Source: a virus
IMG/VR virus record: IMGVR_UViG_3300042922_000357
Location: 1-31,411 of that record
Length of the DNA stretch: 31,411 nucleotides
Reading direction: 5' to 3' (one strand)
The notes under the pieces are model-generated. The model searched no databases and was not told the DNA's origin. It worked only from the letters and a program-made list of their open reading frames with translations. The stretch's first letter is position 1. The number at the start of each line of letters is the position of its first letter. Positions 4,993-23,586 of the stretch are shown piece by piece. Made by a program: the position numbers and the translations under genes.

Positions 4993-5397
4993 TCAACGAT
5001 GTTTTTTGGGAGTGAATTTTTTCTTAGCCATTTGTTTAGAAGTCCGTAAAGCATTTTCAAGTGAAATACGCAGCAATTCTCTGTCTTCTTCGTCCATAGG
5101 CTCTCCCATAAAGGCTAAGGAGTCATTCCCCTCAAGAGCGTTCATCATGTCCTCCAGTTTCTTAGCTATATCAACCTCTTCTTTAACTGTTAAATTTTCA
5201 ATATCTGTGTCAGAGAAAATTTTATCAATGTCTACTTGATAAACTCCCGCGAGTTTTCTTATAGTCTCTAGCCCTGGCTTCCTATTTTCATTCTCGTAGT
5301 GAGAGTAAGTTTGCTTGCTAATTCCAATTTTTTTTGCAACTTCCTCTTGGGTCCATCCTTCTATTTTTCTTAATTCGCGTAAGTTTTGACCGTACAA
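4993..5397 (-). CDS. immR: ImmR-like XRE repressor
   Basis: Master lysogeny repressor by position and family. I place the start at TTG (5397-5395), because GGAGGA lies 6 nt upstream; the longer ATG frame from 5517 would run back through the promoter and operators. The 134-residue protein has an N-terminal helix-turn-helix (about 3-60: LRELRKIEGWTQEEVAKKIG, ISKQTYSHYENENRKPG) and a variable acidic C-terminus, then a basic tail (KKKFTPKKHR). It should bind the GTCAAC-N4-TARGCGA sites between it and cro, repress the early promoter and regulate its own promoter, whose -35 overlaps one site. ImmA downstream would inactivate it. Confidence 0.88.
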   Translation of the reverse strand: MYGQNLRELRKIEGWTQEEVAKKIGISKQTYSHYENENRKPGLETIRKLAGVYQVDIDKIFSDTDIENLTVKEEVDIAKKLEDMMNALEGNDSLAFMGEPMDEEDRELLRISLENALRTSKQMAKKKFTPKKHR

Positions 5398-19085: not shown

Positions 19086-19310
19086 ATGCCAATGACATGG
19101 CAAGAAGCAGAAGTGCATTTGAAGGCATGGCAGGCGGCGGACTTGGCGGTTTCGACGGGGCAGTCGTACTCCTTGGGAAGCCGAAGCCTAACGCGGGCCA
19201 ATATCGCGGATATCCGGCAGCAAATTGCCTATTGGGAGAAAAAGGTGCTGGAGCTTCAGACCGGCCGCCGTGGCGCTCGGGTAATGCGTGCGGTTCCGCG
19301 TGACCTATGA
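19086..19310 (+). CDS. Head-tail joining protein, gpW-like
   Basis: A 74-residue gpW family protein that fits in the portal-neck of lambda-like heads. Typical pattern: helical start (WQEAEVHLKAWQAADLAVST), then GQSYSLGSRSLTRANIADIR and QQIAYWEKKVLELQTGRRG. ATG 19086 is preferred because GGGGGTGAAGG precedes it; GTG 19074 sits in that site. It ends in an ATGA overlap with the portal. In lambda the order is A-W-B, exactly as here apart from the inserted cargo gene. Confidence 0.88.
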   Translation: MPMTWQEAEVHLKAWQAADLAVSTGQSYSLGSRSLTRANIADIRQQIAYWEKKVLELQTGRRGARVMRAVPRDL

Positions 19311-20893
19311 ACATTGTCGATCGAGCGGTAGCGGCGGTATCCCCTGAGCGTGGTCTGAAACGGCAGGTCGCGCGCCGGAAAATGGAGGTTATGAACTCCG
19401 GATATGCCAATCATGGAGCCAGTCGGACAAAGAAATCTTTGCTCGGCTGGCTTTTTCGCGGGGGTTCGCCGGATGAGGATATTATCGACAACCTGGAGAC
19501 GCTGCGGCAGCGTTCACGCGATTTGTATATGGGCGGGGCTACGCTGGCAACCGGAGCGCTGAAAACGGCGCGGACAAATATCGTTGGTACCGGCCTACGG
19601 CTAAAGCCGGCGCTGGACACCGATTTCCTGGGCCTAAGTGAGGATGAAGCCCAGGACATAAAACGTACCATTGCCCGAGAATTTTCAATGTGGGCAGACT
19701 CTCTTCACTGTGATGCGAATCGCATCAATAATTTCTATGAGCTGCAGCAGCTCGCCTGTCTGTCCTATCTCATGAGCGGGGATGTGTTCGGCCTGCTGCC
19801 GATGGTTCCGCGCAAGCATTCCATTTATGACCTGCGCATTCGACTGGTTGAAGCAGATCGCTGCTGTGACCCGAGAGACAAGGGCGGGAAGGACATTAAA
19901 GGCGGGGTTGAAGTGAACAGTGACGGCGAGATTGTGGCTTATCACTTCGCCAACAAACACCCCTTAGCCAATGGAGTGTATGACATTAGGGGCTGGGCCA
20001 GAGTCGAGGCGTTTGGCGAAGAGACCGGCCGCCGCAATGTCGTCCACATGATGGAGTCGGAGCGGCCGGAGCAGCGGCGCGGTGTTCCGTTTATCGCGCC
20101 GGTCATCGAATCGCTGAAGCAACTCGGACGTTATACGGAAGCGGAACTGATGGCTGCCGTAGTTTCTGGGATGTTTACCGTCTTTATTCAGTCCGAAACT
20201 GCCGGTAATCCACTGGGAGACGGTATTGACTTGGAAGATCAAGTGGATACCACCGACGATAACAGCTATGAGCTGGGCAATGGGGCAATTGTTGGCTTGG
20301 GACCTGGAGAGACAGCCAACACCGCCAATCCTGGCCGCCCAAACACCGCCTTTGACGGATTTGTAACCTCCATCCTCCGTCAAGTGGGGTCCGCGCTGGA
20401 AATCCCGTATGAGCTACTGGTGAAGAACTTCACTTCTTCATACTCTGCCAGCCGGGCGGCACTACTGGAAGCCTGGAAGATGTTCCGCATGCGCCGGAGC
20501 TGGATCGCAAATGATTTTTGCCAGCCCATATATGAAGAATGGTTCGCAGAAGCCGTAGCAAAGGGACGTATCCCAGCGCCCGGATTTTTTGATGACGAAT
20601 TGATTCGCCGGGCTTATACGAAGGCGGAATGGCATGGTCCGTCACCGGGCCAATTGGATCCGCAGAAGGAAGCGACAGCTGCTGTCACTCGGATTGAGAA
20701 CGGATTGAGTACCCGGGAGCGGGAAGCTGCAGAAATCAACGGCAGCGACTTCGAACAGAATCACCGGCAACTGGTCCGCGAGGAACGCATGCGCCGGGAT
20801 GATGGCTTAACCGCCGCGCCAGCAACGGAGGGAGGTGAAAAAACGAATGCCGAAAATGACGACGACGATCTTCGCCGCCAAGAAGATCAATAA
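19307..20893 (+). CDS. Portal protein, lambda gpB family
   Basis: A 528-residue portal (lambda gpB is 533) that forms the dodecameric vertex through which DNA enters. Family features include RSRDLYMGGATLATGALKTA near 75-95, NIVGTGLRLKP, an LVEADRCCDPRD segment in the central domain, PFIAPVIESLKQLGRYTEAE, and the SYSASRAALLEAWKMFRMRR block near 380. Gene order gpW-portal-protease supports the call. The C-terminus is Glu/Arg-rich (EEGKT... DDDDLRRQEDQ-like) and overlaps the next gene by 47 bp in another frame. Confidence 0.95.
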   Translation: MNIVDRAVAAVSPERGLKRQVARRKMEVMNSGYANHGASRTKKSLLGWLFRGGSPDEDIIDNLETLRQRSRDLYMGGATLATGALKTARTNIVGTGLRLKPALDTDFLGLSEDEAQDIKRTIAREFSMWADSLHCDANRINNFYELQQLACLSYLMSGDVFGLLPMVPRKHSIYDLRIRLVEADRCCDPRDKGGKDIKGGVEVNSDGEIVAYHFANKHPLANGVYDIRGWARVEAFGEETGRRNVVHMMESERPEQRRGVPFIAPVIESLKQLGRYTEAELMAAVVSGMFTVFIQSETAGNPLGDGIDLEDQVDTTDDNSYELGNGAIVGLGPGETANTANPGRPNTAFDGFVTSILRQVGSALEIPYELLVKNFTSSYSASRAALLEAWKMFRMRRSWIANDFCQPIYEEWFAEAVAKGRIPAPGFFDDELIRRAYTKAEWHGPSPGQLDPQKEATAAVTRIENGLSTREREAAEINGSDFEQNHRQLVREERMRRDDGLTAAPATEGGEKTNAENDDDDLRRQEDQ

Positions 20894-22166
20894 CAGCGCG
20901 GAGTTGACGATTTACGCGCCGATTGAGGATGAAGAATCCTGGTGGTACGACTCCGTGACGCCTAAGGGGGTCATGCGAGCGGTGGCCAACCTGGGAAACG
21001 TATCTGAAATTGTGGTCCGGATTAACAGCAACGGCGGCAGCGCCTTTGCTGGGCTTGCGATTTATCAGTATCTCAAGGACCATGCCGCGAAGATCACGGT
21101 GAAAGTGGATGGCCTGGCCGCCTCGGCAGCCTCCATTATCGCAATGGCGGGCGACAAGATCATTATGGGTACCGGCGCCATGCTGATGATTCATAATCCA
21201 TGGACCGTCACCATGGGTGAAGCCAGTGAGCTGCGCAAGACAGCAGACACGCTGGACAAAATCAGTCAGTCCCTGGTGGCCGTGTATCAGGAGCGTACCG
21301 GCAAAGCGCCGGAGGAACTTCAGACAATGCTGGATGATTCTACATGGCTGACCGGAGACGAGGCGGTTTCCATGGGCTTTGCGGATGAAGTAGACCGGCA
21401 GTTCCAAGTTTCTGCAGCCATTCGCGGCGGAATCGCCGTGTTCAATGGTCAGCGCTTTGACTTGCGGGCTTTTGCTTCAGTGCCAAAGCTGCCGGAAGCT
21501 GCTGAAGACCTTAATGTCCGTGACGAAGCCAACTCCCTGCCACTCTTTGATGTCGGCGAGCGCTGCGTAATTGTAGGCACGCCGCATGATCCGTCTCATA
21601 CAGGCGGAGAGGTCCGGGAAGCTGTCCTGACCTGGACCTATGGTCTGCTGCTGGATGGGATGGAGGATATGGGCGTGCATCACTGGTATGTCGAGTCGGA
21701 GCTTGGGCCGGACGAATCGAGCAGTGAAGACGATGAGCCGGAAATGAGTTCTATGAATAAAACCAAAACACCTGGAGGTGCTGAAACTGTGAAGGACTTA
21801 GGAGAATTGAAAGCTAAACACCCGGATATTTATCAAGCGGCTATTCAGGCGGAGCGGGACCGGATCAAGGCGCTGGATGATCTGGCTTCCCCTGCGAATG
21901 CCGCGATTATTACCGCCGCCAAAGAGTCGGGGGCGACGCCAGAAGCGACAGCGATGGAGATCATCAAGGCGGATAATGCCCGCCGCGCCGCGATGGCCGG
22001 CAAGCTGAAGAACGATGCTGACAAATCGGGGATTGATGATCTGGAACCGGATGCTCCCGACGATCTGATTCCGTCCTCGAAGGAAGTCAAGGACCAGAAG
22101 AAGACGGAGGCTCAGGCTTCAGGCATTGCTGCCAAGGCCCAAAAACTCAGAGGAGGTACACGCTAA
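20847..22166 (+). CDS. Head maturation protease (ClpP-like) with extra middle domain and C-terminal scaffold
   Basis: Prohead protease, 439 residues from ATG 20847 (GGAGGTG 9 nt upstream; the GTG at 20835 is inside that site). The ClpP-type S14 domain spans about 12-190. The nucleophile is in GLAASAAS (S93), the His in MLMIHNPW (H116), and the acid in LDDSTWLTGDEA (about 163-164). Residues about 232-286 form an extra SH3-like domain (GERCVIVGTPHDPSHTGG ... GVHHWYVESEL) not expected in ClpP proteases. The acidic linker SSSEDDEPEM leads to a helical C-terminus that is probably the scaffold. A strong internal ribosome site and GTG at 21789 could make that part alone, as Nu3 is made inside lambda C. 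Confidence 0.9.
   Translation: MPKMTTTIFAAKKINNSAELTIYAPIEDEESWWYDSVTPKGVMRAVANLGNVSEIVVRINSNGGSAFAGLAIYQYLKDHAAKITVKVDGLAASAASIIAMAGDKIIMGTGAMLMIHNPWTVTMGEASELRKTADTLDKISQSLVAVYQERTGKAPEELQTMLDDSTWLTGDEAVSMGFADEVDRQFQVSAAIRGGIAVFNGQRFDLRAFASVPKLPEAAEDLNVRDEANSLPLFDVGERCVIVGTPHDPSHTGGEVREAVLTWTYGLLLDGMEDMGVHHWYVESELGPDESSSEDDEPEMSSMNKTKTPGGAETVKDLGELKAKHPDIYQAAIQAERDRIKALDDLASPANAAIITAAKESGATPEATAMEIIKADNARRAAMAGKLKNDADKSGIDDLEPDAPDDLIPSSKEVKDQKKTEAQASGIAAKAQKLRGGTR
21789..22166 (+). CDS. Nested in-frame scaffold protein, Nu3-like (predicted)
   Basis: Inside the protease gene, GGAGGTG (21774-21780) lies 8 nt before an in-frame GTG (21789), codon 315 of the protease. Translation from here would give 125 residues ending at the same stop: KDLGELKAKHPDIYQAAIQA, ERDRIKALDDL, then a Lys/Asp/Ala-rich helical tail. 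Lambda makes its scaffold Nu3 (about 130 aa) from just such a nested start in C. No separate scaffold gene is present between portal and capsid. Sequence supports the start; expression is inferred. Confidence 0.6.
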   Translation: MKDLGELKAKHPDIYQAAIQAERDRIKALDDLASPANAAIITAAKESGATPEATAMEIIKADNARRAAMAGKLKNDADKSGIDDLEPDAPDDLIPSSKEVKDQKKTEAQASGIAAKAQKLRGGTR

Positions 22167-22531
22167 TGCCGGAACAATACACAGACATTTTTGCTTATGA
22201 CAATCTGTTTGCGGGTCCACCGCATGTCATTGCCAAGGGAGTCATCTTCCAGGGCTCTGGAACATTCAAGCGCGGCCAACTTGTGCAATATGTCAGCACG
22301 AGCGCTGCAGGAGTGGATACCGTAAAACCCTATGTCGGCGGAGAAACGGATACTCCCTACGGCGTCCTGGCGGATCCGGTGGTTATCGTGACCACGACGC
22401 AGCCGGCATCGATCTATCTGAGCGGAGAATACAACCTCGCCGCACTCAGAATCGACGGGACGATTGCTGTCAAAGACCATGTTGAAAAGCTGCGCCAAGT
22501 CGGACTGATCGTGAAGACAGTCGTAAAATAA
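22166..22531 (+). CDS. Head decoration protein, lambda gpD-like
   Basis: A 121-residue trimeric capsid cement protein (lambda gpD is 110). Features are the N-terminal arm (MPEQYTDIFAYDNLFAGPPH), the Gly-rich turn KGVIFQGSGTFKRGQLVQYV, and PYGVLADPV with VYLSGEYN-like sequence. It overlaps the protease stop by one base (TAATG) with AGAGGAGG upstream and lies directly before the capsid gene, as in lambda. Confidence 0.9.
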   Translation: MPEQYTDIFAYDNLFAGPPHVIAKGVIFQGSGTFKRGQLVQYVSTSAAGVDTVKPYVGGETDTPYGVLADPVVIVTTTQPASIYLSGEYNLAALRIDGTIAVKDHVEKLRQVGLIVKTVVK

Positions 22532-22542
22532 GGAGGATAACC

Positions 22543-23586
22543 ATGGGATACTATGATACTCGAACACTGCTTGCTGCCATTCGGCAGATTCCACCGATGC
22601 AAACCTTCCTGCGGGACCGGTTCACGGTTCAGGGGAAGACCTTTCCTACCAAAACGGTGGAAATCGAATACACCAAAGGTAAGCGCCGCCTGGCTCCGTA
22701 TGTTTCGCCTCTGCTTCCGGGCAAGGTAGTCAGCCGAGATGGACGCTCCGTGAAGGTGATTGAGCCTGCTCTGATCAAGCCGGCACGCAGCATCACCGTC
22801 ATTGATATTGATCAGCGCGGCTTTGGTGAACCTCTGTACTCCGAGAAAACACCGGAGGAACGTGCAGAGGAGCTGCTGGCCAGTGACTTGATATATCTGG
22901 ATGATATTATCACCCGTCGTGAAGAAGTCGCCCTTGCGGAACTGATCTTCACTGGGAAGGTTACGCAAATTGGTGAAGGAGTTAATCAGGTCATTGACTA
23001 CGGCCTGACAAACAAAGAAATCCTGACTGGAACCAATCTGTGGAGCAATGAAGCAAGCAAACCTGTCGGCAATCTGATTAACTGGAAGCAGTTTGTCGGT
23101 AAGGCTTCGGGTGGAACTGTCGGGACCGTGCTCATGGCTACAGATGTCGCTCAGGCCTTTATTGAGAATCCACAGATTTTGAAACTGCTGGATAACCGCG
23201 GGTTCTCGCTGGGTAGCATTGCGCCTAAGGATAACCAAAACGGCGCCAGTTACATCGGATACTTGAACTTCCCGGGCGTGGAGTTCTGGAGCTATGACGA
23301 TTGGTATCTGGACGACACGGAGCTGGATGGCAACGGAGACCCTACACTGAAGCCGGTCATTCCGGCTGGCCACATCGCCTTCTTGCCGAATAGCCCATTC
23401 ATCCAGTTCAACTATGGGGCGATCACACTGATGGGTGATGACCACAAGCACAAGACCATTGAAGGTTCCCGCGTGCCGGATGTATGGTCTCAAAAGGACC
23501 CAGCAGTAACTTGGTTGAATATCCACGCCAAACCACTGCCGGCTCCGATGAACGTTGATGGTTGGTTCGTCGCTAAGGTTCTGTAG
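22543..23586 (+). CDS. Major capsid protein, lambda gpE family
   Basis: A 347-residue HK97-fold capsid protein (lambda gpE is 341). It starts MGYYDTRTLLAAIRQIPPMQ, has TFLRDRF near the N-terminus, RRLAPYVSPLLPGKVV, and a spine-helix region SEKTPEERAEELLASDLIYL. Its C-terminal half contains YLDDTELDGNGDPTLKPVIP and the characteristic ALP/N-type PNSP segment. AGGAGG precedes the ATG. Order decoration-capsid and size make the call secure. Confidence 0.95.
   Translation: MGYYDTRTLLAAIRQIPPMQTFLRDRFTVQGKTFPTKTVEIEYTKGKRRLAPYVSPLLPGKVVSRDGRSVKVIEPALIKPARSITVIDIDQRGFGEPLYSEKTPEERAEELLASDLIYLDDIITRREEVALAELIFTGKVTQIGEGVNQVIDYGLTNKEILTGTNLWSNEASKPVGNLINWKQFVGKASGGTVGTVLMATDVAQAFIENPQILKLLDNRGFSLGSIAPKDNQNGASYIGYLNFPGVEFWSYDDWYLDDTELDGNGDPTLKPVIPAGHIAFLPNSPFIQFNYGAITLMGDDHKHKTIEGSRVPDVWSQKDPAVTWLNIHAKPLPAPMNVDGWFVAKVL

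Follow-up and report, generated by a model that had tools for sequence, protein, structure and literature searches.

The window, that is, the whole analysed stretch of 31,411 nucleotides (positions 1 to 31,411 of the IMG/VR record IMGVR_UViG_3300042922_000357), carries a head module with the gene order A-W-B-protease-D-E, as in lambda, and the GpA terminase is present. The original prediction stated that a stand-alone scaffold gene is missing from the interval between the portal and the capsid genes, and we indeed found only a long fusion ORF and a D-type protein there. The features of the region are listed below.

Features of the head region of the window (all coordinates refer to the window)
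Feature	Coordinates	Strand	Details
Lambda-type portal (B)	19307..20893	+	PF05136 5e-97; overlaps protease start
Head maturation protease (S14, ClpP fold) with predicted scaffold part, fusion	20847..22166	+	439 aa
S14 protease domain, residues 18-182	20898..21392	+	NF045542 match 18-182
Linker between protease and scaffold, residues 219-313	21501..21785	+	pLDDT below 50
Extra segment in linker, about 63 residues	21534..21722	+	sequence comparison with relatives
Internal Shine-Dalgarno (SD) sequence GGAGGTG	21774..21780	+	equivalent SD in most homologues
Putative internal start codon GTG of nested gene	21789..21791	+	codon 315 of long ORF
Predicted nested scaffold gene, 125 aa, helical	21789..22166	+	ORF reading, five-helix AlphaFold model
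Lambda D-type head decoration protein	22166..22531	+	PHROG 49, 2e-14; PF02924 weak, 0.03
Lambda E-type major capsid protein	22543..23586	+	PF03864 2.5e-61

The ATG at 20847 is preceded by the SD sequence GGAGGTG, with an anti-SD energy of -12.7, and GTG at 20835 is a second candidate start of the fusion ORF. The N-terminal part of the protein matches the Pfam family CLP_protease (PF00574) at 4e-32 and the NCBIfam model NF045542 'head maturation protease, ClpP-related' with 207.9 bits against a cut-off of 120 (8.6e-62, profile positions 1-165). Ser93 (21123-21125) and His116 (21192-21194) of the protease domain are invariant in 43 homologues, and the top PDB matches of this part are ClpP structures (TMt about 0.8). 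The S49 profile PF01343 reached only 0.07 with the window protein, which belongs to S14, whereas lambda C matches PF01343 at 1.5e-44; hence, the contrast drawn earlier between the S49 protease of lambda and the S14 protease of the window was correct. The extra segment in the linker is missing from the nearest lambda-type relatives (L003 and L004) and had no match in a Pfam search. In an HK97-type module (L163), the C-terminal part of the S14 protease is 68% identical to this segment; the protease domain in front of it shares only 44% identity with that of the window. Judging from these comparisons, the segment is a mosaic insertion.

The original prediction proposed that a second, nested protein is started within this gene, and its anatomical part was exact to the base: GGAGGTG is followed after a gap of 8 nt by an in-frame GTG. 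The distance from the ATG at 20847 to this GTG is 942 nt (314 codons), and the 125-residue product ends at the stop codon TAA (22164-22166) common to the nested and the long ORF. According to the strength of anti-SD pairing (-10.6), the site ranks third among the 30 in-frame start codons, behind the true start and GTG 20982. The latter lies in frame inside the protease domain, behind a stronger SD-like stretch, AAGGGGGT (-11.8). The codons ATG 21744 and ATG 21753 were also considered as the true nested start and rejected, since their SD sequences are weak (-1.9 and -3.5, respectively) and both are located upstream of the conserved boundary. Thus, when the window is viewed alone, the site does not stand out, and its sequence is no more than suggestive of a nested start.

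In the AlphaFold model of the full protein, the ClpP domain is predicted with confidence; it is followed by a stretch of low confidence, residues 219-313, which we read as a probably disordered linker, and by a helical domain, again confident, from residue 318. The helical domain therefore begins behind the linker, three residues after the internal start (residue 315). When modelled alone, the nested product formed five helices with a mean pLDDT of 83.8, and the two models agree with the helical character ascribed to it earlier. Searches with the 125 aa gave no match in Pfam, PHROG or PDB sequences, and no solved scaffold was found by sequence. The best viral match in a fold search with the scaffold model was G8DH45, a weak one (E 0.05), and the best match in the PDB had a Z of 4.5, which is not meaningful for a helical bundle; no solved scaffold matched clearly by fold either.

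To follow the alignment of homologues suggested in the original prediction, we gathered homologues of the tail by protein and profile searches and kept 56, all below 85% identity. ATG, GTG or TTG occupied the aligned start position in 51 of the 56 sequences (35 ATG, 9 TTG and 7 GTG), although the homologues share descent and are not fully independent, and the search pattern sat just downstream of the start. The frequency expected by chance is about a quarter, as estimated from 30 start triplets per 439 codons and at most four codons inspected per sequence. The five exceptions were a homologue at a contig end, one with the scaffold as a separate gene, one whose ATG, preceded by GGAGG, lies three codons farther upstream, and a pair of S49 phages, in which a clear start is absent at the aligned position. 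Wherever the aligned residue is Leu, it is encoded by TTG (9 of 9; background 15%), and an aligned Val is encoded by GTG in all six S14 genes having it (background 24%). Moreover, the mean anti-SD energy at the aligned site was -9.5 kcal/mol, whereas the 917 other start codons that lie in frame within these ORFs averaged -2.5 kcal/mol (P = 8e-26). The aligned SD was the strongest in its own ORF in 39 of 49 cases (2.7 expected) and exceeded synonymous shuffles (P = 2e-7). The GGAGG or AGGAG core occurs in differing codon registers and encodes GG, GE, KE, EE or KG; this variation is a sign that selection acts at the nucleotide level. In addition, there is less base pairing around the aligned start than around the remaining in-frame starts (0.57 vs 0.44, P = 1e-9). 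The internal start site is thus kept, codon and SD together, at the homologous position in dozens of distantly related phages from several bacterial phyla.

The presence of the tail was associated with the type of the capsid protein. In the set of non-redundant S14 loci whose downstream capsid gene could be identified, the S14 genes with the scaffold tail were followed by an E-type capsid gene in 43 of 43 cases, a sample biased by the fact that these loci were partly found by searching with the tail itself. None of the 33 S14 genes located before an HK97-type capsid gene had the scaffold tail (median tail length, 57 aa vs 178 aa). The HK97 capsid protein has its own scaffold (delta) domain (PMC3185693), and the absence of the tail before capsid proteins with such a built-in domain fits a scaffold role. 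Eleven more loci combine an S14 protease and an E-type capsid protein with a tail of similar length that belongs to a different sequence family and mostly has no strong internal SD; in view of these phages, the layout does not require a nested start. The different tail family (...AAHVFNACREANLS...) is found in L010, L020, L095, L117 and similar loci of Burkholderia, Pseudomonas and related prophages. It is possibly another type of scaffold, released in another way.

We consider that the region 20847-22166 very probably contains a nested scaffold gene, and we infer the scaffold role of its product from its position and its association with the capsid type. The comparative data, namely the conserved start and SD, the domain edge, the link with E-type capsid proteins and a phage with the scaffold as a separate gene (see below), lend strong support to the original prediction in both its parts, that a nested start exists and that its product serves as scaffold. 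If lambda C/Nu3 is taken as a model, initiation at ATG 20847 would yield the protease-scaffold fusion of 439 aa, and initiation at GTG 21789 behind GGAGGTG would yield a free 125-aa scaffold, probably the more abundant of the two. The free scaffold would drive the co-assembly of the E-type capsid protein, which itself has no built-in scaffold, and the fusion would enter the prohead through its own scaffold part. The protease of the fusion would then degrade the scaffold and itself before DNA packaging. We assign a probability of roughly 0.88 to this reading of one frame and two proteins as a whole.

Of the other explanations, a mode similar to that of P2 gpO, in which only the fusion is made, self-cleavage frees the scaffold and the internal start is unused, is improbable, though it survives best. 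The linker predicted to be disordered in the fusion and the S14 and E-type phages having other tails without a strong internal SD would be consistent with it. However, it leaves unexplained why an SD is kept at a fixed place and why only TTG or GTG are chosen as codons there. It is slightly less probable still that the internal start is used but its product is not a scaffold, e.g., that it regulates the protease or acts as its partner in targeting. The lack of a match between the predicted scaffold and any solved scaffold could speak for such a product, but the nested domain tracks the type of the capsid protein, occupies the same place as Nu3 in lambda and is annotated as scaffold in relatives, and the head module has no other scaffold gene. 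Finally, 30 of the 1553 start triplets on the plus strand of the window (about 2%) reach -10.6, but the idea that a Gly-Gly codon pair resembles an SD by chance and happens to precede a Val codon is statistically refuted by the start conserved in 51 homologues from several bacterial phyla, and we regard it as practically eliminated.

The original prediction left it open whether an arrangement like that of lambda around a different protease reflected convergence or domain swapping. Profile comparison (hhalign) revealed one scaffold domain behind both S14 and S49 proteases (99.2%, E 7e-20), and this match speaks against convergence of the two nested layouts. Moreover, in the scaffold tree the S49-linked rows did not form one clade (AU p 0.00016, with long branches as a caveat), and two rows confirmed as S14 (L222 and L223) were located inside an S49 group with 100/100 support. 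Vibrio phage H188, Acinetobacter phage Scuro, Sinorhizobium phage phi3LM21, Shewanella phage SFCi1 and Vibrio phage 97.13 have an S49 protease, and it is followed by a homologous scaffold domain whose aligned position also carries a start codon. In Sulfurimonas phage SNW-1, the S49 protease and the homologous scaffold are separate adjacent genes (L233, 2300-2809). Since the ClpP fold is common to S14 and S49, a replaced protease domain cannot be fully told apart from deep divergence. Independent invention, however, is unlikely, and the data are best read as common ancestry of the scaffolds combined with an exchange of modules, or with a change of protease, inside a single lineage of scaffold genes. 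As to Nu3 of lambda, homology is no more than suggestive: the scaffold profile matched that of Nu3 at 79% over 44 columns, with an E of 1.6e-5 for a single comparison, and PHROG 8399 gave no match. The findings on the S14 family also point to recombination between scaffold and protease modules. It is conceivable, at somewhat less than even odds, that a mobile cassette consisting of the scaffold, its ribosome-binding site and its start codon has been attached repeatedly by phages to proteases of different types (S14 and S49). In that case, the evolution of capsid-scaffold pairs would be separate from that of the protease by which the scaffold is removed.

The same S14 fusion with the internal start as in the window was found in Paenibacillus phages Lily and phiERICV and in Vibrio X29, as well as in E. 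coli 473R2, Roseburia Shimadzu and nd4, which are annotated as scaffold/Nu3. The putative internal starts of Lily, X29 and 473R2 are located at L174:4224, L176:4170 and L177:4146, respectively. GenBank labels on some S14 relatives read protease C / scaffold Nu3 or Clp protease-like scaffolding protein; the nested CDS was listed in none of the 11 annotated S14 records examined. The literature searched, which mostly lay outside subscription journals, did not mention a nested scaffold start for S14 phages. In Pseudomonas phage MD8, the single gene for gp5 was reported to encode a protease, modelled on ClpP, and behind it a proposed scaffold domain (PMC8508860). Unlike the window gene, it is also fused to the major capsid protein, and the accessible part of that report does not describe an internal start. 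In the record of Acinetobacter phage HFM1, proteomics notes accompany the portal, decoration and capsid proteins; the protease/scaffold is not among them, as would be expected if it leaves the head.

Nested scaffolds were already known in lambda, N15 and Mu, and the new observation is that the internal start is conserved across the S14 family. This extends the nested-gene solution of lambda C/Nu3 to S14 phages as diverse as those of Firmicutes, Fusobacteria and Proteobacteria. It also supplies scaffold gene coordinates for phages seemingly lacking such a gene, and automatic annotation of the missing nested gene is feasible. The nested layout around a protease other than S49 is not unprecedented, as illustrated by Mu and the herpesviruses. 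In Mu, the annotation places the start site of Z inside the protease gene I, as is predicted for the window, but the I protease belongs to the Mu-like_Pro family (PF10123) and not to S14. The herpesvirus genes UL26/UL26.5 encode a protease and a scaffold nested in frame (PMC2949831); they differ from the window in having a separate 3'-coterminal transcript and an unrelated protease. In N15, gene 5/gene 6 carries the annotation 'internal in-frame translational start' with a nested scaffold, as predicted for the window. Lambda C/Nu3 resembles the window in gene order, place, in-frame scaffold start, common stop and similar lengths (439 and about 131 aa), and differs from it by the S49 protease. 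Lambda Nu3 is essential and binds C, the portal and E (PMC3224144, PMC10695390). The lambda record (L178) annotates nu3 inside C, from 5132 (201 aa), and we observed that AGGAGG is located upstream of the lambda ATG at 5342, which matches the 131-aa scaffold family PHROG 8399.
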